DNA of 30,819 nt. Source: a virus. The stretch covers positions 1 to 30,819 of IMG/VR virus record IMGVR_UViG_3300035659_000847; one strand, given 5' to 3'. The stretch's first letter is position 1. Each line of letters begins with the position of its first letter. A program made the position numbers and the translations under genes. Of the stretch, positions 1,683-25,461 are shown in pieces. Below the pieces are notes generated by a model. The model did no database searches, was not told the DNA's origin, and saw only the letters and a program-made list of their open reading frames with translations.

Positions 1683-3017
1683 TCAGCCCTTTGCCGTGAT
1701 GGTCTGATCCCCGCGCCGCACGTCCCAGTCATCGGGGTCCATGTCGACGTGGAGCGCGATGTCGGGGTAGTCGTGACGGAACGCGCGCACCATCGCGTGA
1801 ACTTGCTTGCGCAGCGTCGGGTGCACGGTCTTGCCCGAACGCAGCTCCAAGACGTAGAGCAGCGCAGGCAACGCGTACATCACGTTGCACGGCACCCGGA
1901 ACCCGAGTGCCGTGTAGTACTGCCGCAGGACACTACGATCTGGACCATCTCCGAGCCGGTTGATCTCGTCGCGTTGCTCGTCGATCAGTGCGACTGCTTC
2001 AGCGCGCAGGTCTCCAAGCTGTTCGAGGTACCACGCCTCGAAGCCGTAGCTCGTGTCGAGCAACGGCATCCGACAGACGCCGTTCCGGTGGCGCTGCAGG
2101 TCCCGGAACGATCCGAAGTCGAGTAGGAACTCGACGTGTACCTGACCCATGTCGGTCATGAAGTGCGGCAGCACGCAGCCACGCGGACGCGTCTTGAGCA
2201 GCTCGGTGTAACGTGCATTCATGCGGAGGTTCATCGCGTTCAAGCGCAGGCTCGACAGCTCGGTCTTCGCCGAGTACGTGAACGCGCTTGCGACACGCCA
2301 CTCCCAGTCTTGACGGACGTCACGGGCCACGCGGTCCTTGTTGTCGACGCCGCTGACCGTTGCAAGCGACAGCCCGAGCCCGCTCGACGGGTAGCGTTCC
2401 CCGAGTTGCGTCCGCAGCTTCAGCGCCAGCTGGCTGATCTCTGGCGACGGGTGATGGATGAGTCCCGCGAGGTGATCGCCGGCCTGGCGCAGATTCGTGT
2501 GCCACGACAGCTGCGTCGTGATGCCTGCGGGCAGGAAGCCGCGCAGGATGTCGAACGTCCGAGCCTTGATGGCGCCGTCGTACGACGCCTGCTTCTCACC
2601 GTCGCGCATCGGATACCGCGCGCGCAGGATCTCGCCGACGGCACCCTGCTTCGACGTGTAGAAGTCCATCCAACGGTCCAGCACGGCCTTCGAGGCGTCC
2701 GACCCGAACGGGTCGACGATCACCTGCTTGCTCATGTCGATGTAGCGCGTCGACGTCTCCTGGCCGTTGTAGAGCGGCCAGTCCTGCACGGCCTTGGCCG
2801 CGAGCAAGCTCACGCCCTCGATGAACATCGTGGTCGTGCCGCAGTCGGCGATGCTCTTGTGACCGTACCCGACGTAGTACTGCGCCATGAACTTGCCGGA
2901 GCCCGACTGCTGGACCTTCTCCAGGTGCACGTCGACGCTCTCGGCGCTGCGCGAGTAGAGCGCCTGTAGCATGGCCTCGTCCTCGGGGTTCAGGTCATCA
3001 ACGATGCGGAGCTTCAT
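1683..3017 (-). CDS. ThyX-like flavin-dependent thymidylate synthase, duplicated domain
   Basis: This 444-residue protein resembles flavin-dependent thymidylate synthase, which makes dTMP from dUMP using FAD and methylenetetrahydrofolate. It is about twice the usual ThyX length and contains two ThyX-like halves. The first half has GYGHKSIADCG (about 50-60), QETSTRYI (86-93, like the SxRY end of the ThyX motif) and an LPAGITTQLSWHTNLR segment (162-177) typical of the ThyX C-terminal helix. The second half has RDLQRHRNG (305-313), which carries the RHR of the signature, and LRSGKTVHPTLR (392-403). The RHR and SxRY elements are therefore split between the halves. Long two-domain forms are known in bacteria, but activity here is inferred. 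An AAGGA site lies 8 bases before the ATG. Its neighbours, including RNR and dTMP kinase elsewhere, fit dTTP supply. Confidence 0.8.
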   Translation of the reverse strand: MKLRIVDDLNPEDEAMLQALYSRSAESVDVHLEKVQQSGSGKFMAQYYVGYGHKSIADCGTTTMFIEGVSLLAAKAVQDWPLYNGQETSTRYIDMSKQVIVDPFGSDASKAVLDRWMDFYTSKQGAVGEILRARYPMRDGEKQASYDGAIKARTFDILRGFLPAGITTQLSWHTNLRQAGDHLAGLIHHPSPEISQLALKLRTQLGERYPSSGLGLSLATVSGVDNKDRVARDVRQDWEWRVASAFTYSAKTELSSLRLNAMNLRMNARYTELLKTRPRGCVLPHFMTDMGQVHVEFLLDFGSFRDLQRHRNGVCRMPLLDTSYGFEAWYLEQLGDLRAEAVALIDEQRDEINRLGDGPDRSVLRQYYTALGFRVPCNVMYALPALLYVLELRSGKTVHPTLRKQVHAMVRAFRHDYPDIALHVDMDPDDWDVRRGDQTITAKG

Positions 3018-3077
3018 CTTCAGGATCCTTGCTAGGTTCGCGTTGGAATACGCTGATCGAACTCGACGAGCTTGGAA

Positions 3078-3287
3078 CTACGGTCGCAGCAGCTCGGCGC
3101 CCGTCATCTTGACGGGACCGCCGTTCAGCATCGTGATCCGACTCGCGACTTCTTTCTGTTGCCGGCGTAGGCCGCTCGCGAGATCGAGGTCGCCGCTGTT
3201 TGCCGCCAGCGTGAACGCGTACTGCAGCGCAGCTGACGCCTTCGACAGTTCCTTGGTGCACAGTGCTTTCTCGACGGTCGTCATCAT
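3078..3287 (-). CDS. Possible internal-start product, small helical protein
   Basis: Inside the longer frame, ATG at 3287 (followed by a second ATG at 3284) is preceded by TGAGG about 7 bases upstream, a good ribosome binding site. The 69-residue product begins MMTTVEKALCTKELSKASAA and is predicted to be mostly helical (two amphipathic helices, the second around SGLRRQQKEVASRI). This could be the true gene, with the upstream half having lost its stop codon, or an in-frame short isoform. No family is recognised. Confidence 0.45.
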   Translation of the reverse strand: MMTTVEKALCTKELSKASAALQYAFTLAANSGDLDLASGLRRQQKEVASRITMLNGGPVKMTGAELLRP

Positions 3288-3569
3288 GGTCAACCTCAGG
3301 TTCGTGGCGGCCACGACCAGCCGGGGGGTCTGTGGGCTTGCGGGATTGAACGGGCGGATGTTGGACTGGTGCGGGGAAGGTGAATGGTGCGGGTCGTAGT
3401 ACTGATCACCGGGCTCGAAGAACACGAACAGGTTCACGACGTCGTCACTCGCACCCACCGACGTCACGACGGCAGGCCGCGACATGCTCACGGGCTTGTA
3501 GTTGACATCGCCGCTCGTGACGGTGAAGTGGTACAGCACGATGCGACACGGTGTCGGGTTGCTGATCAC
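3078..3569 (-). CDS. Hypothetical phage protein, possibly two fused small genes
   Basis: GTG at 3569 overlaps the TGA of the DUF4326 gene (GTGA) and opens a 163-residue frame. The first 90 or so residues (RPAVVTSVGASDDVVNLFVF, then a His/Pro-rich stretch ending PHHSPSPHQ) resemble a small phage protein type of unknown function seen in many tailed phages, which normally ends at about this length. The remaining 69 residues look like an independent small helical protein that begins at an internal ATG with its own ribosome binding site (see the nested entry). There is no stop codon between them, so either one fused protein or both products are made. Function unknown. Confidence 0.55.
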   Translation of the reverse strand: MISNPTPCRIVLYHFTVTSGDVNYKPVSMSRPAVVTSVGASDDVVNLFVFFEPGDQYYDPHHSPSPHQSNIRPFNPASPQTPRLVVAATNLRLTMMTTVEKALCTKELSKASAALQYAFTLAANSGDLDLASGLRRQQKEVASRITMLNGGPVKMTGAELLRP

Positions 3570-3898
3570 TTGATGCTCCGGTCGCTGAAGTCCATCGGCT
3601 TCACAGCGTCGCGTGCCGCGTAGTAGGTCTCGATGTACTCGACAATGATCTCGCCATGGCATCGCTGCGGCGAGCAATGACAGCCCAGGCGCTTCCCGCG
3701 CAGGTCCAGCACGCGCCGCTTGAACTCCGCGTCCTGCTCGACGCGCTTGTAGAAGTAGGTCCGGTACAGCGCCAGCACAGCGTTGCGATCGTTGTGCTGA
3801 TCGCGGTGAAACGGATTTCCGAACGGCGACGAGCGATCGATCGCGACGTCATGCGCGTTGGTCCGCATGTTGACGACGGTGGTATCGATGATCGCCAT
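3566..3898 (-). CDS. DUF4326 domain protein
   Basis: The 110-residue protein matches DUF4326 throughout. It has VVNMRT (8-13), the DRSSPFGNPF motif (21-30), a helix with VLALYRTYFYKRV, then LRGKRLGCHCSPQRCHG (66-82) containing C73, C75, C80 and H81, which could bind a metal. DUF4326 proteins are widespread in phages and have no settled function. The start at 3898 is chosen because ATG overlaps the preceding stop (TGATG) and AAGGAAGG lies just upstream; the in-frame extension to 3967 has no support. Confidence 0.8.
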   Translation of the reverse strand: MAIIDTTVVNMRTNAHDVAIDRSSPFGNPFHRDQHNDRNAVLALYRTYFYKRVEQDAEFKRRVLDLRGKRLGCHCSPQRCHGEIIVEYIETYYAARDAVKPMDFSDRSIK

Positions 3899-3993
3899 CA
3901 CTGCGCCTTCCTTGCGCGTTTGATCTCTTCTCGTTTGATCGCGGGGATCAACTCCGTCACGATCCACGTCGCGACGTCACGCAGCCACGGCAT
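3898..3993 (-). CDS. Possible 31-residue overlapping peptide
   Basis: A short frame fills the gap between the 4005-4274 gene and the DUF4326 gene. It starts at ATG 3993 (two in-frame GTG codons lie just upstream) and its TGA overlaps the DUF4326 ATG in a TGATG coupling. The peptide (begins MPWLRDVATWIVTELIPAIK) has an amphipathic helix and a basic tail. The ribosome binding site is weak. It may be a real micro-protein or only a coupling device for the next gene. Confidence 0.4.
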   Translation of the reverse strand: MPWLRDVATWIVTELIPAIKREEIKRARKAQ

Positions 3994-4004
3994 CCGCACC
4001 ACGG

Positions 4005-4274
4005 TTACGCCGTCTCTTTGCGTCGTGCTTCCTGCAGCGCCGCGACGAGCTTCTTCGGATCGCCGCCAGGGCCGACGACGCCGACGTAGTTCGCGACGTC
4101 TGACGCGTCGCAGACGTCGCCGCCAAGGGCACAGATCGGTCGCACCTCGGCGGTGAGGCACGGTCCCTCGGCCAGCTGCCAGCATGCGATCGGCTCCGTG
4201 AAGAAGCCGTCCACTGCGTCGATCTCCTCGAACACCACCAACCAGCCCGGTTGGCACGCCACTAGATTGCTCAT
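4005..4274 (-). CDS. Hypothetical protein, 89 residues
   Basis: A short acidic protein (begins MSNLVACQPGWLVVFEEIDA) with four cysteines and a C-terminal helix ending in ARRKETA. No family is recognised. The start is well supported: CTAGGGGAG lies 7 bases upstream, a sequence that recurs before several other genes here. It lies 30 bases downstream of the helicase ATPase and is likely cotranscribed with it. Confidence 0.65.
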   Translation of the reverse strand: MSNLVACQPGWLVVFEEIDAVDGFFTEPIACWQLAEGPCLTAEVRPICALGGDVCDASDVANYVGVVGPGGDPKKLVAALQEARRKETA

Positions 4275-4281
4275 GTCGTCG

Positions 4282-4290
4282 CTCCCCTAG
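4282..4290 (-). promoter_or_regulatory. Ribosome binding site of CTAGGGG type
   Basis: CTAGGGGAG on the minus strand, 7 bases before the ATG at 4274. The same core precedes the starts at 7579, 20262 and 23332. Confidence 0.6.
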
Positions 4291-4304
4291 AGAAAAAGAA
4301 AACT

Positions 4305-7061
4305 CTACGCGCGTCGGAACGTGTACAGCATCGTGTTGCCCGGCCCTTGCCGCCGTTCGATCTCGAAGTGATGTGCCAGGGCCCCGCCAGCTTCGCGGAG
4401 CCGTGCTGCCAATCCCTTCGGAGACTTGAAAAACATCGCGTTGTTCTGCACCTTCGCAATCGCCGCTAGCTCGCGGTGAAAGTCTGCAATGCGCATCTCG
4501 CGGCCAACGTTCGTCGTGATCTCAAGCCACTTGTCGATGAGGTCGATCATGGGATCGCCCTCGGTCACCAGCGAGTCGCGCTCGGCCTGCATCGCCCCGA
4601 GCATTTCCTCGATCGCCTCGGGCGTCCAATCGCCGGGCGGCCCAGCAGGTTGGTTCAGCACGCGACCGATCAGGTGCGCCAGGTGCGCGAAGTCAGCCAT
4701 ACGGTACTTCGATGTCGTCATCGCCTGCGGCCGACGCAGCTCGCGGACGATCTCGTTGAGCCAGTAGAGCCATTCACCCTGCAGCTCCGGGCGCCAATAG
4801 GTTGCCTGCTCGAACAGCTGGTTGGCCGGCGTATAGCCTGACTTCTGGGCACGACGTTCGAGGCGCAAGATCAAGCAGCGGTCAGCAACCTGACCTTGGC
4901 GGAACGTCTGTGGGTTGTTCGTCGTGATCGCGAGGAACGCCTCGGGCTTGATCACGTGCTCGGTATCGTCGGAGAACAGCTTGCGACGCGACCACTTGCC
5001 GCCCGTGACGTACGTGCACAGCGTGTCGCGCAGCCACTCGACGGGATCGTTGACGTCGTCGATGATCGCGATCGGCGACCGCAGGATCTTCACGCCGAAG
5101 TCCGGGTCCTCTTTCTTGGGAACGGTCAGCGGCGTGTACTTGCCGTGCAGGGTCATCGCGATGCGCTGCAACGCGAACGTGTTGTGCGTGACGGTGAAGT
5201 CACCGAGCAGGAACCGGCCGTCGCCGTCGAGTGTGAAACCGTAGTAGTTACCTGTGCGTTCGGGTTCGGGTTCGATCGTGAACCCGGTGTGCAGGACGTC
5301 CTTGATCTGCTGCCGTGGCGCAGCTTGTCGCCGCGGGACCTTGCAAGGGATCTGGTCAAGGTGACCCGAGATCGTGACGCGGTAGTAGAGGCCCTCGAAA
5401 TCGATGGACTTGATCGTCGCGGTTTTGTCGCTGACGTACGCGGCAAAACCGAGGCTGCGCGCCAAATACAACAGGTCGTCAGCGAGACCTTTGTACTTGG
5501 TGGTGATCTCGTAGTAGCCGTTGCACAGGTAGCCGTCCGTGTCGAGCAGGCCTGCGAGCAGCTCCAAGCGTTTGTTACGATCGTTCGTCAGGTACAGCGA
5601 CGGGATGCGCTTCGCACCGTCAACGACGCAGGTTGAGAGGTACTGCCATAGTGTGTTGGTGACGGGGTTTCCTCGTTCACCTGTCAACGAGATCGTGTAG
5701 CTGTTGTTGCGCGGGGTCTCGACGATCTTCGCTGTGAGGCCGTAGCGCGGCGCGACGGCCGTACAGTACGCGTGGATCTCGGGCTCGCAGTTGGTGATCT
5801 GTGGCGTGGTCTTGGTGCCGTCACCGAGCCACAACCCCAACAAGTACGGCTCGACAGGAACTTTCTGTGACGGAAATTCGACGCCGGTACGAAGCTGTTT
5901 TGTCTTGGCCCGATACGAATCGTGATGGGCCAGGTAGTCGCGTACCGTGATCTCCTCGACGCGGTAGCCCTCACGGTGGTGGGTGCCTACCACAAGGATG
6001 TGATCCTCATTGCACACCCACGAGTCGCCCTTCACAGGCGTGACGCGGTAGAGCTTGCCACGTCCACGCGTGACGCTGTTGACTTGCCGGGGCTTCGAGT
6101 CTGGGCCCATGAGCTGCTCGCCAACGACAACATCCTCGACGGGCTTGACGGTACCGTCGAACATGAGAACCGGCGTACCGCGCCCTAGGCACTTGCCCGA
6201 GCCCATCTCGCCCTCGACCAGCAAGAGCGGCTTCGTGGGCATCAGATCCGGGAACGCGACGGCGAACATCCAGATCCCCAGGCAGGTCTTCTGGATGTCA
6301 GGTGACATCCCGCCTTCGCGCGTCGGGACGTACTGGAGATCGTCGATCAGGCGCTTGAACAGCTCGTGGTGGTTGCCGACCTCGGGGCCGGTCTTCTGTG
6401 GGACGTCGCAGTTGTAGCCGCCATCGTCGTCGAGGAACACCGCAGGGCCATAGCCATTCGCGCGGATCGTGATCTCGTCGCCGTCGATCTCGTAGCAGGT
6501 GCCGTCATACCGCGAGATGTAGAGCTTCCGCCCGCCACGATCCCAAAACGCGAATCGTCGCACTTCACGGTGCAGCCCTTCTGCGATCGTCAAGTTCTTG
6601 AGTGACGCGATCAGGTGCTTCGTGAGCTGCTCGGTGGAGTTGAGCCCGTAGGCCTGCAACATGTACCCGCAGAACTCCGGATCGCGCTCGTCGATGCGAT
6701 AGAGCTTGCAGGCACGGCCCTCTAATAGATAGGCGCGCTTGTCGGGCGTTCGCAGAAACGCACCGTGGACCGTCTTACGGTTCTCTTGCGTCGCGATGAA
6801 GTTGTGCAGGATTCGGCGCTTCTGATCGTCGTTGTACTTCTTGTGGTAGCGGATGACCCAGACTTGCTGACGGGTGAAGGCATGCGGATCGCTGCTGGGA
6901 CCACCACCACCGCCACCGCCACCGCCACCACCTGGAACGCCTGCGTTGACGCTAGCGTTAGGGACACTTCCAGGCGCACCCGGCGCGCTTGGCGTACTCG
7001 CGGTGATCGCTGCGTTAGCGCTGGTTCCCGGGAACGGGATGATGTTGTTGTTGGACGCCAT
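4305..7061 (-). CDS. Replicative helicase-type P-loop ATPase interrupted by an intein
   Basis: The 918-residue precursor would splice to about 581 residues. The N-terminus is disordered, with an 11-Gly run at 44-54. A middle domain (about 60-270) resembles the leader region of phage primase-associated helicases. The ATPase has Walker A GEMGSGK|T split by the intein at K290/T628, Walker B IAIIDDVND with D668 and D669, and a sensor-like ITTNNPQTFRQGQ followed by RCLILRLERR as arginine-finger candidates. This order fits the DUF5906/D5-like helicases that work with Prim-Pol primases, and such a primase lies downstream in the same unit. The C-terminal 150 residues are helical and probably bind DNA (about 850-900). 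ATG at 7061 follows a G-rich ribosome binding site and lies 8 bases after the upstream stop. The ATPase is clear; the exact helicase subfamily is not. Confidence 0.82.
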   Translation of the reverse strand: MASNNNIIPFPGTSANAAITASTPSAPGAPGSVPNASVNAGVPGGGGGGGGGGGPSSDPHAFTRQQVWVIRYHKKYNDDQKRRILHNFIATQENRKTVHGAFLRTPDKRAYLLEGRACKLYRIDERDPEFCGYMLQAYGLNSTEQLTKHLIASLKNLTIAEGLHREVRRFAFWDRGGRKLYISRYDGTCYEIDGDEITIRANGYGPAVFLDDDGGYNCDVPQKTGPEVGNHHELFKRLIDDLQYVPTREGGMSPDIQKTCLGIWMFAVAFPDLMPTKPLLLVEGEMGSGKCLGRGTPVLMFDGTVKPVEDVVVGEQLMGPDSKPRQVNSVTRGRGKLYRVTPVKGDSWVCNEDHILVVGTHHREGYRVEEITVRDYLAHHDSYRAKTKQLRTGVEFPSQKVPVEPYLLGLWLGDGTKTTPQITNCEPEIHAYCTAVAPRYGLTAKIVETPRNNSYTISLTGERGNPVTNTLWQYLSTCVVDGAKRIPSLYLTNDRNKRLELLAGLLDTDGYLCNGYYEITTKYKGLADDLLYLARSLGFAAYVSDKTATIKSIDFEGLYYRVTISGHLDQIPCKVPRRQAAPRQQIKDVLHTGFTIEPEPERTGNYYGFTLDGDGRFLLGDFTVTHNTFALQRIAMTLHGKYTPLTVPKKEDPDFGVKILRSPIAIIDDVNDPVEWLRDTLCTYVTGGKWSRRKLFSDDTEHVIKPEAFLAITTNNPQTFRQGQVADRCLILRLERRAQKSGYTPANQLFEQATYWRPELQGEWLYWLNEIVRELRRPQAMTTSKYRMADFAHLAHLIGRVLNQPAGPPGDWTPEAIEEMLGAMQAERDSLVTEGDPMIDLIDKWLEITTNVGREMRIADFHRELAAIAKVQNNAMFFKSPKGLAARLREAGGALAHHFEIERRQGPGNTMLYTFRRA
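5181..6191 (-). mobile_element. LAGLIDADG intein in helicase Walker A
   Basis: In-frame intein of about 337 residues (precursor residues 291-627). It begins with Cys (CLGRGTPVLM), ends HN, and is followed by Thr, so it is a standard class 1 intein. Splicing domain block B is seen at VCNEDHILVV. The two endonuclease motifs are YLLGLWLGDGT (about 406-416) and LLAGLLDTDGY (501-511), both with their catalytic Asp, so the homing endonuclease may be active. It lies between Lys and Thr of the P-loop, so the ATPase should be inactive until splicing. Confidence 0.93.
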
Positions 7062-7578: not shown

Positions 7579-9789
7579 ATGAGAGCGATGACGGCGCCAC
7601 GGGCTGAGCTAGCCCTAACGCCACACCCAAAACGACGCGATTGGTACGCGATTCCTCCGGCATGGACGCCTGAGGTTTCGCCTGCCCCGTCGGTGCAGCT
7701 CGACCCGCGGTTCGGACCGCTGGTGCATCGCTCCCATTTGCCGTTGCTTGCGAAGCTCCATCCCGAGGTCGAGCTTTTTTTGATCCAGCACGGATCGCGG
7801 ATGGGACTGGAAAGTGATCGCAACAGCGATCGCAATGCCTTCGACGCGACGACGGAGCCCAACGGTTGGAAACTCCGGGACTATCAGCATACCGGCCGCG
7901 AGTTCATCCGCGCACGCCGCGGCATCTTGCTCGCGGATCAGATGCGTTTGGGGAAGGCGCAACCTCTCGACGCGAAGATCTTGACGCCGACCGGCTGGCG
8001 TCTGATGGGTGATCTCATCGTCGGTGACGAGATCGTTGACCCTGATGGTGGCGTTGCCTATGTCGAGGCGATCTATCCACAAGGTGTCAAGCCGCTGTTT
8101 GAAGTCTTGCTGGCATCGGGCGCCAAGACTTGCTGCTGCGCCGAACATCTGTGGCTCACCGGCTTTCCCGTACCCGATCGTTCTGAGATGCAGCTTCGTG
8201 CGCTGCCGACGACGATGCTGATCGATCCGCAGCCGCGTTGGTTACCTCAGATGGGCAACTCCAATTTCGATTGGACACGGATTGTTCACGTCAAGTCGGT
8301 CCCTGCAGTTGAAGCGCAGTGCATCAAGGTCTCGTCAAAGCGTTCGCTGTACATCACCGACGACTACATCGTCACGCATAACACCGCTCAGTTAGTCTCT
8401 TCGCACGAGCCTAGCGACGGCCCGTTGATCGTCGTCGCGCCGCTCGCGACGCGCGAGGTCTGGCTCGGCTGGTTTCGTCGTCGCTGGCCGGACATTCGAC
8501 CGACCGTGCTGCAGGGCAAGTACGTCGCGTACGTCGACCCGAAGAAGGCGCCCAAGCGCAAGAGGGAGCGCAACTACGATCTGCTCGAAGGCGAGTTCTT
8601 CGACGAGAGCGCGCTCAAGAATGCGCAGCTCGTGTTCATGAACTACGACATCCTCGCCGGCTGGAAGAACTTCGGCAACCGTCGCGTCGGTACGCTGGTC
8701 TTCGACGAGATTCACCTCCTCTCGAACAAAGGCTCGCGGCGTAGCAAGGCCGCTATGTTCCTCGCAGCACAAGCCGAACGCGTCATCGGTGCGACCGGCA
8801 CGCCGCTGTGGAACAAGCCCGCCGGTCTGTTCACGACGCTGGCGTGCATTAGTCCCGGCGCGTGGGGCAAGTACTTCGAGTACGCGAGCCGTTACGCGAA
8901 CGGCCGCATGGGTCCGCACGGATTTGTTGCCGATGGTGCCTCGAACGAAGAAGAGTTCCGGGTGCGCATGCAAGAGATCATGCTGCGCCGTACCTGGCAG
9001 AGCGTGCTCGGTGAAGTGCCTGTCATCGAGCGTACGGTCGAGGTCGTTCAGATCACTGAACGTCAGGCGTTCAAGGTCGAGAAAGAAGCCGAACGCGTAC
9101 GCGACCACGCCGTACGCAGCACCGCCATCGGTGCGATGGCACGTTTCCGGCGGCTACTCGCGCAACTCAAGCTCGACGGATCTATCGACGTTGCTAAGCG
9201 CGTCCTCGACGGTGGCGAGCGTGTGATCGTCTGGACCTGGCACCGCGACATCGCCATCAAGATCGAAGAGGCGCTCGCGAAACAGGGCTTTCCCGGCTTC
9301 GTCGTCACGGGCAGCACCAACCCTGACATCCGCGCCGAGATCTTTGATCGTTGGCGTGCGCATCCGGCAGCGCCGCTCTGCATTACGCTTTCCGTCGGCC
9401 AGGTCGGTATTGATCTGAGCGCTGCACGGCAGGAAGTCTTCGCGGAGCTGGACTACACCCCATCGATCGTCGCGCAGGCTGAGATGCGGCCGTTCAACGG
9501 CAAGCAACCGATCGCCGCAACGTACGTGATCATCGATCACGAGATCGAACGGAAGATCCTCGAAGCGTTGCAGACCAAGTGTGACTTTGCGTTGCGCCTT
9601 GGGATCCCGGCGGCCGAGAGCGCGATCGAAGTCATCGCCAGCGGCTTCACGGGTGTTGGTGGGGGCCTCGGAACGGCTGACGATTTTGCGGCGCTCGCGA
9701 ATGCCGTGCTTACCGATCATCCCGACGAGGATGAAGGCGACAACGACTATCACGGAACAATGTGGACCCTCGACATGGAGGCGGAATGA
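7579..9789 (+). CDS. SNF2/SF2-family DNA helicase interrupted by a mini-intein
   Basis: The 736-residue precursor would splice to about 594 residues. SF2/SNF2 motifs appear in order: WKLRDYQHTG (97-106, Q-like motif), Walker A LLADQMRLGK|T (117-126 plus T269), IVVAPL motif Ia (284-289), DEIH at 376-379, GATGTP (404-409), VIVWTWH (549-555), GSTNPDIRAEIFDRW (578-592), and LSVGQVGIDLSAA with QAEMRPFNGKQ (about 604-643) as motifs V and VI. Phages use such enzymes for fork remodelling or branch processing during recombination-dependent replication. It heads the rightward unit, and its TGA overlaps the start of the nuclease gene. The C-terminal tail is acidic. Motif VI lacks the usual second Arg before the Gly. 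Precise function unknown. Confidence 0.88.
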   Translation: MRAMTAPRAELALTPHPKRRDWYAIPPAWTPEVSPAPSVQLDPRFGPLVHRSHLPLLAKLHPEVELFLIQHGSRMGLESDRNSDRNAFDATTEPNGWKLRDYQHTGREFIRARRGILLADQMRLGKAQPLDAKILTPTGWRLMGDLIVGDEIVDPDGGVAYVEAIYPQGVKPLFEVLLASGAKTCCCAEHLWLTGFPVPDRSEMQLRALPTTMLIDPQPRWLPQMGNSNFDWTRIVHVKSVPAVEAQCIKVSSKRSLYITDDYIVTHNTAQLVSSHEPSDGPLIVVAPLATREVWLGWFRRRWPDIRPTVLQGKYVAYVDPKKAPKRKRERNYDLLEGEFFDESALKNAQLVFMNYDILAGWKNFGNRRVGTLVFDEIHLLSNKGSRRSKAAMFLAAQAERVIGATGTPLWNKPAGLFTTLACISPGAWGKYFEYASRYANGRMGPHGFVADGASNEEEFRVRMQEIMLRRTWQSVLGEVPVIERTVEVVQITERQAFKVEKEAERVRDHAVRSTAIGAMARFRRLLAQLKLDGSIDVAKRVLDGGERVIVWTWHRDIAIKIEEALAKQGFPGFVVTGSTNPDIRAEIFDRWRAHPAAPLCITLSVGQVGIDLSAARQEVFAELDYTPSIVAQAEMRPFNGKQPIAATYVIIDHEIERKILEALQTKCDFALRLGIPAAESAIEVIASGFTGVGGGLGTADDFAALANAVLTDHPDEDEGDNDYHGTMWTLDMEAE
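7957..8382 (+). other. Class 3 mini-intein in helicase Walker A
   Basis: In-frame intein of 142 residues (precursor 127-268), between Lys and Thr of the P-loop. It starts with Ala (AQPLDAKILTPTGW), so it lacks the Cys/Ser nucleophile of ordinary inteins. It carries the three-part WCT signature of class 3 inteins: Trp two residues after the block B His (AEHLWLT), Cys in block F (QCIKV), and Thr before the terminal His-Asn (IVTHN). The next residue is Thr. No LAGLIDADG or other endonuclease is present. Confidence 0.9.
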
Positions 9790-12430: not shown

Positions 12431-12450
12431 TCGCGGTTGTTGCTCAACAC

Positions 12451-12469
12451 CGAGTGCAACGTGCACTCG
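12451..12469. promoter_or_regulatory. Hairpin in RNR leader
   Basis: Perfect 8-bp stem CGAGTGCA / TGCACTCG with a 3-base ACG loop, between the first hairpin and the RNR start. No known riboswitch consensus is recognised. Confidence 0.45.
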
Positions 12470-12525
12470 GGCAGGCCAGCTACCTGCTACCGCGGCCGAT
12501 CTCGATCGTCGACGTTCAACCCCCG

Positions 12526-12540
12526 TGTACGGAGCGTACA
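12526..12540 (+). promoter_or_regulatory. Hairpin presenting the RNR ribosome binding site
   Basis: TGTACG / CGTACA stem around a GAG loop; the GGAG at 12531-12534 is the only ribosome-binding-like sequence before the ATG at 12548, 13 bases away. Folding could modulate initiation. Confidence 0.4.
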
Positions 12541-12547
12541 AACACCA

Positions 12548-15500
12548 ATGATCGAACCCGTGCTGACTGAAATTTCCCAGAGTGTACTCGCCAAGCGATA
12601 CCTCATCCGCAACGCCAGCCAAGAAGTCATCGAAACCCCCAAGGCGCTCTTTCAGCGTGTCGCTGATTTTCTCGCAACGGCTGAAGCACCTGGCGAGCGC
12701 GAGAAGTGGGCGGCGATCTTCTACCGGATGATGGCCGCGCGTGAGTTCGAGCCGAACACGCCGTGCCTTGTCAACGCAGGTCGTCCCGACGGCACCGGCC
12801 AGCTCAGTGCGTGCTTCGTGTTGCCGGTGCCCGATTCGATGGACGGGATCTTCAGCGCGATCCGCAACATGGCGCTCGTGCAGAAGACTGGCGGCGGTAC
12901 AGGCTTCAGCTTCAGCCGGCTACGGCCCGAGGGTGACTTCGTCTCGACGACGTCGGGTGTCGCGTCCGGTCCGATCTCGTTCATGGAAGTCTTCGACTTC
13001 GCGACCGAGCGGATCAAGCAGGGCGGTGTTCGGCGCGGCGCGAACATGGGCATCCTGCGCATCGATCACCCGGACATCATGAAGTTCATCGCCCTCAAGC
13101 AGGGCGACACGAACAAGATGCAGAACTTCAACGTGTCGGTGGCGATCACCGATGCCTTCATGCTCGCGCTTGAAGCCGGCAAGGACTTCGACCTGATTCA
13201 CCCCGTCAACGGCAACGTCGTTGCGCAGCTTCACGCGCCGACGGTATGGAAGGAGATCGTCCGCTGCGCCCACAAGATCGGCGACCCCGGGTTGTGGTTC
13301 GTTGATCGCGTGAACGCTGCTGACGCGTTGTCGGAGGCGCTCGGCCCGATCGAGGCGCCGAACCCGTGCCAGCCCGCATGGGCCACGGTGCTCACGCCCG
13401 ATGGCATTCGCACGTTCGCCGACATCGATGTTGGCTCGACGATCTGGAGCGGTCAGCGCTGGACGAAGGTGACCAAGAAGGTCGCGACCGGCGTGAAGCC
13501 CGTCCATGCCTATCGGACGCGCGCAGGTACGTTCTACGGCACCGAGAACCACCGCGTCATGCAGAACGGTCACAAGATCGAAGTACGCGCTGCGGACGCG
13601 ATCGACACGGTCGTCGGGCCGGTCTGCGAACGTCGCGGATACGGGCTCAGTGACGTTGTCGATGGGCTCGTGCTCGGTGACGGCTCGTATCACAAAGCGA
13701 GTGGTCGGGTGTTCCTCTGTGCCGGGCCGGACGACATCAAGGCGTACAACCAGGATCCAATCGCGAGCCAAGACCTGATCGGTGAGCACCGTCCGGGTGT
13801 CAAGGACACGTACTACGAGGTCGAGACGTCGTTCAAGACGCTGCCGCTCACCTACAACCGCGTCGTCCCCGACAAGTATCGCTACGGCGACGCCATCAAG
13901 GTTGCAGGGTTCCTGCGCGGGCTCTATTCCGCGAACGGGTCCGTCGTCGGCAACCGCGTCACACTGAAAGCCGCGTCGTTCGCCGTGATCGAGGCCGTCC
14001 AAGAGATGCTGTCGTCGATCGGCATCGCCTCGTACTACACGACCAACAAAGCGCACGACATCGAGCATCACAACGGCGTGTACACGTCGCGTGAGAGCTA
14101 CGATCTCAACATCGGCAACGTGGAGGGTCGTGCGCGCTTCGCCGATCTGATCGGCTTCATCCACGCACACAAGAACGAACGGCTCGCAGCGAGTCTCGAC
14201 GTTGACGGTCGGCGCGCGCCGAAGGTCACGTACGACATCGCCGACATCGAGTACATCGGTGATGAGCCGGTCTTCGACATCACCGTCGACGCCGACGAGC
14301 ACACGTACTGGACCGGCGGCATGCTCGTTTCGAATTGTGGCGAGGTCGGCCTACGTCCATTCGACGCGTGCTGCCTCGGATCCGTCAACCTCGCCGAGTT
14401 CTTCGTCGAGAAAGAGGGCAACACCGCACACAAGCACGGCAACGTCGTGATGCGGCACGGCTCGATCGACTTCGATCGGTTGCAACGTACCGTGCAACAC
14501 AGCGTCCGTTTCCTCGACAACATGTTGACGGTCAACAAGTACCCGATCCCAGAGATCCACGACGTCACGTCGAAGTGCCGCAAGATCGGCCTGGGCGTCA
14601 TGGGTTGGGCAGACCTACTCGTGCAGCTGGGCATCCCGTACAACTCGCCCGAAGCACGTGAGCTGGGCTCCCACGTGATGAAGCTCGTCAACACGTGGGC
14701 CGCCGACGCCAGCGAGAAGCTCGCGGAGGCACGTGGACCGTTCCATCACTGGCCTGTGTCGAAGTGGGCCAAGCTCGGGCACAAGCCGCGTCGTAACGCG
14801 ACGACGACGGTCATTGCGCCGACTGGCACGATCAGCATCATCGCGGGCTGTAGCAGCGGCATCGAGCCATTGTACGGGCTGTCGATGACGCGCGATCAGG
14901 CGGGCATGACGATGCTCGAAGTGAACCCGCTCGTCGAGAAGATCGCCAGGCGCGAAGGCTTCTGGTCCGATCAGCTCGCCGAGACGGTTCGCCAGAGCGG
15001 GTCGCTGGCTGACGCTCCCGGCGTACCCGATCACTGGCGCGCAGTGTTCGCGATCGCCAACGAGCTGAGCATGGAAGATCACGTCGGGATGCAGTCGGTC
15101 TTCCAGGCACACACCGAGGATGCTGTCAGCAAGACGATCAACCTGAAGAACGACGCAACCGAGGCTGACATCGAGCGCGCGTACATGCTGGCGTGGACGA
15201 AGGGGTGCAAGGGCATCACCGTCTACCGCGACGGCTGTCGTTCCGGTCAGGTCCTGACGGCCGGTGTCGTCGCCAAGCCTGACGCTGTTGTTGCCCCTGT
15301 CGCGTCTGTTACTGCAACCACCAAGCGCCGTGTACCTGCCGATGGCCGGCGTTCGGGTGTGACCCTCAGCCGCTCCACGCCGTACGGCAGCGTCCACATG
15401 ACGATCAACCACCACCCCAGCGACGGCGATCCGTTCGAGCTGTTCGTGCGCGTCGGCAAGTCGGGCTCCGAGGTCATGGCGTGGGCCGAAGCGTTCGGTC

Positions 15501-15901
15501 GCGTGGTCAGCTACACGCTCGCGCTGCCGTCACCGTTCTCGCCGCAAGCACGCCTCGAAGAGGTCGCGCGGCAGCTCAGCAACATCGGCGGCGGCGACGT
15601 CTGGGCGGTTGGCATGGAGCGCGTCGTGTCTGCACCTGATGCAATCGCCAAGATGCTGCTGTCGCACCTAGGTATCAACGAGAGCTTCAACTACAGCGTC
15701 GACGCGCCCCCGACTGCGCACGCACCGACGCCTGTGCTCGCACCCGTCGTCAGTGCTGGCACCGTCAACGCTGCCTCGAACGGCCACGTTCGGCCCAAGT
15801 CCAAGTCGCTGAGCGATCTGTGCCCGGCGTGCGGCAAGGCGGCGTTCATCTACCAGCAGCGGTGCGGGCTGTGCACGAACTGTGGACATTCCAAATGTTG
15901 A
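12548..15901 (+). CDS. nrdJ: Class II (cobalamin-dependent) ribonucleotide reductase with intein
   Basis: The precursor of 1117 residues would splice to about 794. It fits vitamin B12-dependent RNR (NrdJ), which reduces ribonucleotides without oxygen or a separate radical subunit. N-terminal LAKRYLIRNASQEVIETP and FEPNTPCLVNAGRP are typical, followed by the redox Cys in GQLSACFVLP (about C89). NP|CGE, with the radical-site Cys, is split by the intein. After it come LRPFDACCLGSVNLAEF, TTTVIAPTGTISIIAG and TKGCKGITVYRDGC. Near the C-terminus are a TSCPD domain (VHMTINHHPS to about residue 1020) and a zinc ribbon, LCPACG...CGLCTNCGHSKC. ATG at 12548 is chosen because homologous sequence begins there; an in-frame extension to 12437 runs through leader hairpins. 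No class I small subunit is seen. Confidence 0.92.
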   Translation: MIEPVLTEISQSVLAKRYLIRNASQEVIETPKALFQRVADFLATAEAPGEREKWAAIFYRMMAAREFEPNTPCLVNAGRPDGTGQLSACFVLPVPDSMDGIFSAIRNMALVQKTGGGTGFSFSRLRPEGDFVSTTSGVASGPISFMEVFDFATERIKQGGVRRGANMGILRIDHPDIMKFIALKQGDTNKMQNFNVSVAITDAFMLALEAGKDFDLIHPVNGNVVAQLHAPTVWKEIVRCAHKIGDPGLWFVDRVNAADALSEALGPIEAPNPCQPAWATVLTPDGIRTFADIDVGSTIWSGQRWTKVTKKVATGVKPVHAYRTRAGTFYGTENHRVMQNGHKIEVRAADAIDTVVGPVCERRGYGLSDVVDGLVLGDGSYHKASGRVFLCAGPDDIKAYNQDPIASQDLIGEHRPGVKDTYYEVETSFKTLPLTYNRVVPDKYRYGDAIKVAGFLRGLYSANGSVVGNRVTLKAASFAVIEAVQEMLSSIGIASYYTTNKAHDIEHHNGVYTSRESYDLNIGNVEGRARFADLIGFIHAHKNERLAASLDVDGRRAPKVTYDIADIEYIGDEPVFDITVDADEHTYWTGGMLVSNCGEVGLRPFDACCLGSVNLAEFFVEKEGNTAHKHGNVVMRHGSIDFDRLQRTVQHSVRFLDNMLTVNKYPIPEIHDVTSKCRKIGLGVMGWADLLVQLGIPYNSPEARELGSHVMKLVNTWAADASEKLAEARGPFHHWPVSKWAKLGHKPRRNATTTVIAPTGTISIIAGCSSGIEPLYGLSMTRDQAGMTMLEVNPLVEKIARREGFWSDQLAETVRQSGSLADAPGVPDHWRAVFAIANELSMEDHVGMQSVFQAHTEDAVSKTINLKNDATEADIERAYMLAWTKGCKGITVYRDGCRSGQVLTAGVVAKPDAVVAPVASVTATTKRRVPADGRRSGVTLSRSTPYGSVHMTINHHPSDGDPFELFVRVGKSGSEVMAWAEAFGRVVSYTLALPSPFSPQARLEEVARQLSNIGGGDVWAVGMERVVSAPDAIAKMLLSHLGINESFNYSVDAPPTAHAPTPVLAPVVSAGTVNAASNGHVRPKSKSLSDLCPACGKAAFIYQQRCGLCTNCGHSKC
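13367..14335 (+). mobile_element. LAGLIDADG intein at RNR active site
   Basis: In-frame intein of 323 residues, inserted in the NP|CGE catalytic motif. It starts with Cys (CQPAWATVLTPDG) and ends LVSN before Cys, so the penultimate residue is Ser instead of His. Block B is GTENHRV. Endonuclease motifs are LVLGDGSY and GLYSANGSV; the second has Asn where the catalytic Asp is expected, so the endonuclease may be impaired. Block F (FDITVDADEHTYWTGGM) resembles other RNR inteins. Confidence 0.93.
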
Positions 15902-24503: not shown

Positions 24504-24751
24504 CCAAATTTGCCAACAAGACGTTCTCGTCGCCGCCCAACAGCAAAGCGTACCGCGACAACTGGGACGCCGTGTTCGGCGACGAGAAGAACGCCTACGA
24601 AGCTCTTGCAGCGAAACTAGACAGCCCGCTCATTGCTGAAGACCTGACTTGCGCGCACTGCGGCGGTCCACGGCAACCGAATCCACCCTGGCCGCGAGGG
24701 TTCTGCCGCATCGAATGCGAGCGCGCGTTCTACCGCGCCCTCGGAGACTAG
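24500..24751 (+). CDS. Small zinc-finger protein
   Basis: GTG at 24500 overlaps the previous TGA. The 83-residue product has CAHCGG followed after about 15 residues by CRIEC, giving a treble-clef-like four-Cys site. Function unknown. It is the last rightward gene before the oppositely oriented endonuclease, with which its stop shares CTAG. Confidence 0.65.
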   Translation: MTKFANKTFSSPPNSKAYRDNWDAVFGDEKNAYEALAAKLDSPLIAEDLTCAHCGGPRQPNPPWPRGFCRIECERAFYRALGD

Positions 24752-25461
24752 CGGCGTTGGCGATCCTGTCGTAGCCACCAGAAGCTCGTCACACTGTCGA
24801 GCGACGCCGGATTGACGATTCCTCGTGACGCTGCTTGCCGGGTACCGTCTTCAGACAGATCGAACAGCGTCGCCAACTCGCGATACCCGTACGACCATCG
24901 ACTGCGGCGTGTGGATCGAATGTGGACGTCGGCCGGCACCGCAAGGTTGTCCGGGTGGTTGTTCCACGTATTCTGGTCGACGTGCTCGACAGCGCCTGAG
25001 CCGATCACACCGAAGATCACGCAGCAGATCGGTGTGTACTCGCGACCCGTCCAGAGCACGAAGTGGTCGTCGATGATCTTTGCGAACGGCTGGAACGACC
25101 CGCCGTGAGGTGTGCAGAGCCCCGGTTCCATCATCGTGGCCAGGCAGCCTGGGTAACCGCAGCGGTACAGATCAAACCGTGGCCAGCGTCCTCGCCACTC
25201 CTTCAATGTCGCCGTACCCGTAAGCACCTGGACGGCTTCGTCGTCGGTGAGTTTCTGCGAACGGCGCGTCAACGCCTCGGTGATGTACAGCGCGGCCGCG
25301 CGCGCATCGGTTGACGTTCGCAGTTTCGAGCGTGTCGTCGACGGAGCCTCAACGGCCGCTACCGCGAGATCATCGAACGTGAACAGTCGACTGGGACCCC
25401 GTTCACGGTGCCGGTGCTTGAACACCTTGCGCGGATTTTCGCGTGGTTTGAGGGCTGGCAT
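24748..25461 (-). CDS. HNH homing-endonuclease-like protein
   Basis: The 237-residue protein carries an HNH/NUMOD-type nuclease region: AVEHVDQNTWNNHPDNLAVP (157-176) with H160, N168 and N172 as in phage HNH_3 homing enzymes. Upstream is a Cys/His site (C101, C106, C116, H119) likely to hold zinc. The C-terminus (RELATLFDLSEDGTRQAASRG) looks like a DNA-recognition helix-turn-helix. It lies on the opposite strand within otherwise rightward genes and overlaps the preceding gene tail to tail by 4 bases, as expected for a free-standing mobile endonuclease. The N-terminal 20 residues are basic. No intron or intein remnants are evident at its edges. Confidence 0.75.
   Translation of the reverse strand: MPALKPRENPRKVFKHRHRERGPSRLFTFDDLAVAAVEAPSTTRSKLRTSTDARAAALYITEALTRRSQKLTDDEAVQVLTGTATLKEWRGRWPRFDLYRCGYPGCLATMMEPGLCTPHGGSFQPFAKIIDDHFVLWTGREYTPICCVIFGVIGSGAVEHVDQNTWNNHPDNLAVPADVHIRSTRRSRWSYGYRELATLFDLSEDGTRQAASRGIVNPASLDSVTSFWWLRQDRQRR

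Follow-up and report, generated by a model that had tools for sequence, protein, structure and literature searches.

A predicted class 3 mini-intein in the Walker A loop of a viral SNF2-type helicase

The closest described class 3 inteins

According to published descriptions, the Snf2 intein of D. radiodurans belongs to class 3 and splices efficiently (PMC3196547), and it is among the first class 3 inteins with proven splicing (Brace et al. 2010, cited via PMC3196547); detection of its block F branched intermediate is cited in PMC5222942 and PMC6195587. Three class 3 mini-inteins are active in splicing (PMC5222942), and the class 3 mini-intein DnaBi1 of M. smegmatis lies within the P-loop (PMC6195587); an intein placed between Lys and Thr of this loop was termed a classic P-loop insertion (PMC5050341).

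Here, we describe a predicted class 3 mini-intein in the Walker A motif of an SNF2-type helicase. The window, that is, the whole stretch of DNA analysed, is an entire virus record of 30,819 bases. The D. radiodurans intein, likewise of class 3, is also carried by an Snf2-family helicase, but its host is a bacterium and its splicing was shown experimentally; this comparison rests on the papers' descriptions. MchDnaB1 (6RIX/6RIY) and Msm DnaBi1 (6BS8) share with the window intein the small size, the Trp-Cys-Thr (WCT) triad and the Hint fold predicted for it, and Msm DnaBi1 also the location in the P-loop, whereas their host is the replicative helicase DnaB and they are ~25–30% identical to the window intein.

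Viral contig L042 has the same combination as the window, a 167-aa class 3 mini-intein at GLGK/T of an SNF2 protein (the slash marks the insertion point), but its intein resembles the window intein less closely (34 identities in the first 68 residues) than does the intein of contig L034 (41 of 68). The latter belongs to the same supported group in the tree described below, has a GLGK/T site and is 63% identical over the splicing blocks; it differs in its length of 345 aa and in a host protein with LAGLIDADG matches. Pseudomonas phage PhiPA3 gp233, annotated as an SNF2 helicase, carries the class 3 signature at GTGK/T, but its intein has 345 aa and a LAGLIDADG domain. The class 3 mini-intein of Alishewanella phage Slicko01 (OQ508956.1) also has 142 aa and a GK/T site, whereas its host, which matches ResIII and Helicase_C, is an SF2 helicase and not SNF2.

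Two observations were made alongside. The L034 protein (G012:C1, ~3490–6660, minus strand) is an SNF2-type viral protein of 1393 aa with apparently two class 3 inteins. L008 (MT835601.1) has at 3001–3423 a class 3-type mini-intein of 141 aa (HLW, QCITV, THN/S) at GSGK/S of what is apparently an SbcC/Rad50-type ATPase.

The intein, its catalytic residues and its host gene

The locus is composed as follows:

7579–7956, plus strand: N-extein of the SNF2-type helicase, with LADQMRLGK of Walker A at its end (ORF, Pfam, intein-free alleles)
7957–8382, plus strand: predicted class 3 mini-intein, Ala1 to Asn142 (translation, profile, fold prediction)
8146–8154, plus strand: block B His64-Leu65-Trp66 (His B:10, Trp B:12), without variation in an alignment of 18 class 3 mini-inteins
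8320–8322, plus strand: Cys122 of block F (F:4), the nucleophile predicted to start splicing, invariant in the 18-row alignment
8374–8382, plus strand: block G Thr140 (G:5), His141 and Asn142, invariant in the same alignment
8383–9789, plus strand: C-extein from Thr+1, the Walker A Thr, including the stop codon (ORF, Pfam, intein-free alleles)
7932–8499, no strand: mosaic tract around the intein, L012-like and not L018-like (triplet test; extein bases from about −25 to +116)

The ORF at 7579–9789 is intact and encodes 736 aa. Its product is an SNF2-type helicase by Pfam, as a reading of the sequence alone had proposed, since SNF2-rel_dom (E = 6.5e-14, 52.1 bits, cut-off 24.9) and Helicase_C (E = 4.6e-8, 33.7 bits, cut-off 23.5) both score above the Pfam cut-offs. 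The intein occupies residues 127–268, with a single open frame running from one extein through it to the other, and its stop-free translation of 142 aa reads AQPLDAKILTPTGW...CCCAEHLWLT...VEAQCIKVSSKRSLYITDDYIVTHN. It lies between Lys and Thr of Walker A (LADQMRLGK/TAQLV). The sequence-only reading had given exactly these coordinates, and its edges coincide with those set by the intein-free alleles described below.

Position 1 of the intein is Ala; there is no Cys, Ser or Thr, and the Ala start put forward from sequence alone is thus borne out by the translation. The WCT triad claimed along with it was found at the expected blocks, with W66 at B:12, C122 at F:4 and T140 at G:5, and H64, H141, N142 and Thr+1 complete the class 3 signature, which supports the earlier assignment to this class. 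The nucleophilic Cys, Ser or Thr that defines class 1 at position 1 is replaced by Ala1. Class 2 (KlbA-type) inteins are defined as KlbA orthologues whose F:4 and G:6 residues are Asp and Ser, respectively (PMC4031507), whereas here the host is SNF2, F:4 is Cys and G:6 is His. A Pfam search found no endonuclease domain within the 142 aa, and ~55 residues separate blocks B and F, like in other mini-inteins; the description as a mini-intein devoid of an endonuclease is therefore correct.

Two other features of the intein were considered and discarded. Cys61 in block B looked like an odd substitution, but Cys is present there in 118 of 165 relatives. The GC3 of the intein is 0.68, compared to a mean of 0.81 for 142-codon blocks, but the adjoining N-extein is also low (0.71) and GC3 was dropped as evidence for a foreign origin.

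Independent of single residues, a profile made from other class 3 mini-inteins gave the ORF 134.8 bits (E = 3.6e-41), whereas the best of 2000 shuffled sequences reached 6.6 bits; the same profile also weakly matches the two other intein-bearing genes of the window. A phmmer search against the PDB retrieved the class 3 DnaB inteins of M. chimaera and M. smegmatis (E ~1e-9). Together, these matches argue that the resemblance to inteins is not due to chance. The AlphaFold2 model has a predicted Hint fold (pLDDT 95.4), for which Foldseek gave the class 3 inteins 6BS8, 6RIY and 6RIX as top matches; by VIA-align, Z was 19–21 against many inteins (6BS8: Z 20.0, 1.5 Å, 123 residues). Class 3 is told apart from class 1 by residues, not by fold.

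Based on the work on class 3 inteins in PMC5222942, PMC4031507 and PMC6195587, we infer the following order of steps. Cys122 would attack the peptide bond preceding Ala1, giving rise to a block F branched intermediate, with His64, Thr140 and Trp66 shaping the active site. The N-extein would then move to the side chain of Thr+1, Asn142 would cyclise, and an acyl shift would join ...MRLGK to TAQLV..., thereby restoring Walker A. Since Thr+1 is the Walker A Thr, the unspliced helicase should lack normal ATP binding and be inactive.

The helicase itself is maintained. Compared to the nearest allele, L018, the extein has a dN of 0.015 and a dS of 0.39, indicating strong purifying selection, and the ratio of nonsynonymous to synonymous codon changes is 5:50 on the window branch and 5:53 on the L018 branch, although much of this record may predate the intein. 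That the intein has decayed, no longer splices and inactivates this copy of the helicase has a precedent in the Arth_1007 intein of Arthrobacter FB24, which is non-splicing (PMC3196547). Unlike Arth_1007, the window intein retains Cys F:4 and the full set of other catalytic residues; the ORF is uninterrupted, and the window branch has the same pattern of codon changes as that of L018, so that decay is very improbable here; an inactivation that happened very recently would not show in these data. Taking residues, predicted fold and empty alleles together, we favour with high confidence a splicing-competent class 3 mini-intein in the GK/T loop that would descend from an endonuclease-bearing ancestor and would have arrived by recombination.

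The helicase has a peculiarity outside of the intein. The usual SNF2 motif VI is of the QAEDRxHRxGQ type. At the end of the helicase core, the motif VI region (9468–9515, plus strand) reads QAEMRPFNGKQP. QAEMRPFNG is conserved in all nine relatives of the helicase and the second arginine of motif VI is, therefore, missing from the whole family.

Frequency and relatives of the intein

A scan with a class 3 pattern gave at least 567 confirmed relatives in viral contigs and at least 356 in bacterial and archaeal genomes; a scan of 111 genomes from the class to which the genome of L166 belongs gave matches in 8. Inteins were delimited in 165 cases, taken from 80 viral and 80 bacterial or archaeal relatives of those listed, plus phage records. 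In every one of the 165, block B contains His-x-Trp, F:4 is Cys and the last residues are Thr-His-Asn, with the count for Cys slightly favoured by the Cys-containing pattern with which intein ends were first sought. Insertion is at GK/T or GK/S in 114 of them. As to length, 139 have 300 aa or more, five are intermediate and 21 are mini-inteins of 128–167 aa.

These data speak against two claims of the sequence-only reading. It had regarded an SNF2 host as unusual for a class 3 intein, but such hosts include the D. radiodurans Snf2 protein, PhiPA3 gp233 and several viral contigs (by Pfam, SNF2 hosts include L034, L041, L042, L116, L131, L134, L137, L181 and PhiPA3 gp233). It had also found the absence of an endonuclease noteworthy, which does not hold in view of the 21 mini-inteins among the 165 and the three published ones that splice. 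Class 3 inteins are found in numerous SNF2/SF2 helicases of phages and bacteria, and mini-inteins are common in this class; the claim of unusualness falls. The window intein is an ordinary further member of a large known family, to which it adds one clean example, and its value lies partly in correcting the idea that either trait is exceptional.

In a tree of the splicing blocks, the intein groups with those of L034, L041 and L114 (SH-aLRT 95), which are class 3 inteins of 345–376 aa. The tree comprises 124 rows and about 100 columns and most of its forks are open; it is unrooted, as the class 1 outgroups, the window's own class 1 inteins, had saturated branches at the length limit. The hosts of L034 and L041 are SNF2-type and that of L114 has methyltransferase and helicase domains; LAGLIDADG matches are present in all three host proteins. 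A close relative of the mini-intein itself was not found in our searches. The tree has mini-inteins in several places, suggesting more than one loss of the endonuclease. For the window intein, an endonuclease-bearing class 3 intein would most likely be the ancestor, the endonuclease having since been lost.

Intein-free alleles, mosaic flank and other inteins of the window

The same helicase is encoded on nine viral contigs with 71–97% amino-acid identity, and none of the nine has the intein. They run LADQMRLGKT, or near variants of it, uninterrupted across the junction, which fixes both boundaries of the intein independently of its motifs. A search for the intein in the records of these nine alleles gave a single weak match, in that of L011, within the primase-helicase gene. 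The searches turned up no other contig in which this helicase carries the intein, and the allele is known from one contig. A DNA search specific for the junction had L215 as its sole match, where an unrelated GC-rich frame resembles the junction by chance.

The neighbouring genes of the window helicase are colinear with the contig of L018. Downstream of the site, 92% of the nucleotides are identical to those of L018, compared to 73% in the segment between 37 nt before and 47 nt after the site. In a triplet test with L018 and L012 as possible parents, no L012-like run in the gene is stronger than the one that covers the intein site (counting extein bases alone, the intein itself excluded); this run was reached in none of 5000 permutations, before correction for the eight donors tried. 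With L013 and L017 as donors p was ~0.01, and L014, L015, L016 and L019 gave no significant result. The signal from outgroup-like sites close to the junction, taken by themselves, was weak (p ~0.02, with a hand-chosen interval) and fell short of that of the triplet scan, which had no preset interval. However, L018 and L011 also differ from each other in the flanking segment that diverges most, which weakens the argument for recombination; the mosaic supports arrival by this route but does not prove it. Together with the absence of the intein from nine relatives, it makes it probable that the intein reached this helicase allele by recombination.

Since the evidence comes from a single contig and no second one was found, the intein of a foreign genome could have been joined into an empty helicase allele during assembly, but this is scarcely credible for a full intein inserted frame- and residue-exact between K and T, with a divergent flank (~25 nt upstream, ~117 nt downstream) that equals no other known contig and adjoining genes colinear with the contig of L018.

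As the intein is missing from a 97% identical helicase allele and lies in a short mosaic tract, as if brought in by gene conversion, it is tempting to speculate that it spread recently between phage lineages without an endonuclease of its own; this is a tentative suggestion that we consider rather doubtful. Such spread could be due to a trans-acting endonuclease or to plain phage recombination, or the endonuclease could have been lost after arrival. The near-identical phage helicases with and without the intein provide a natural comparison for the spread or loss of a mini-intein.

On the minus strand at 24748–25461, the window encodes a possible free-standing HNH endonuclease, with weak matches (Pfam HNH_3, E = 0.0024; PHROG HNH, E = 0.0015). 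It is conceivable that this candidate is a trans-acting homing enzyme.

The window has two further inteins, both of class 1 type with Cys1 and LAGLIDADG. One, of 323 aa with a VSN/C end (13367–14335, plus strand, in ORF 12437–15901), is located at NP/C of the gene for a B12-dependent ribonucleotide reductase (NrdJ); like the helicase mini-intein, it is absent from the otherwise colinear contig of L018. The other, of 337 aa with THN/T (5181–6191, minus strand, in ORF 4305–7061), sits at Walker A GK/T of the primase-helicase gene. The contig of L018 has this intein as well (94% over the full length), and five other relatives with a complete match lack it.
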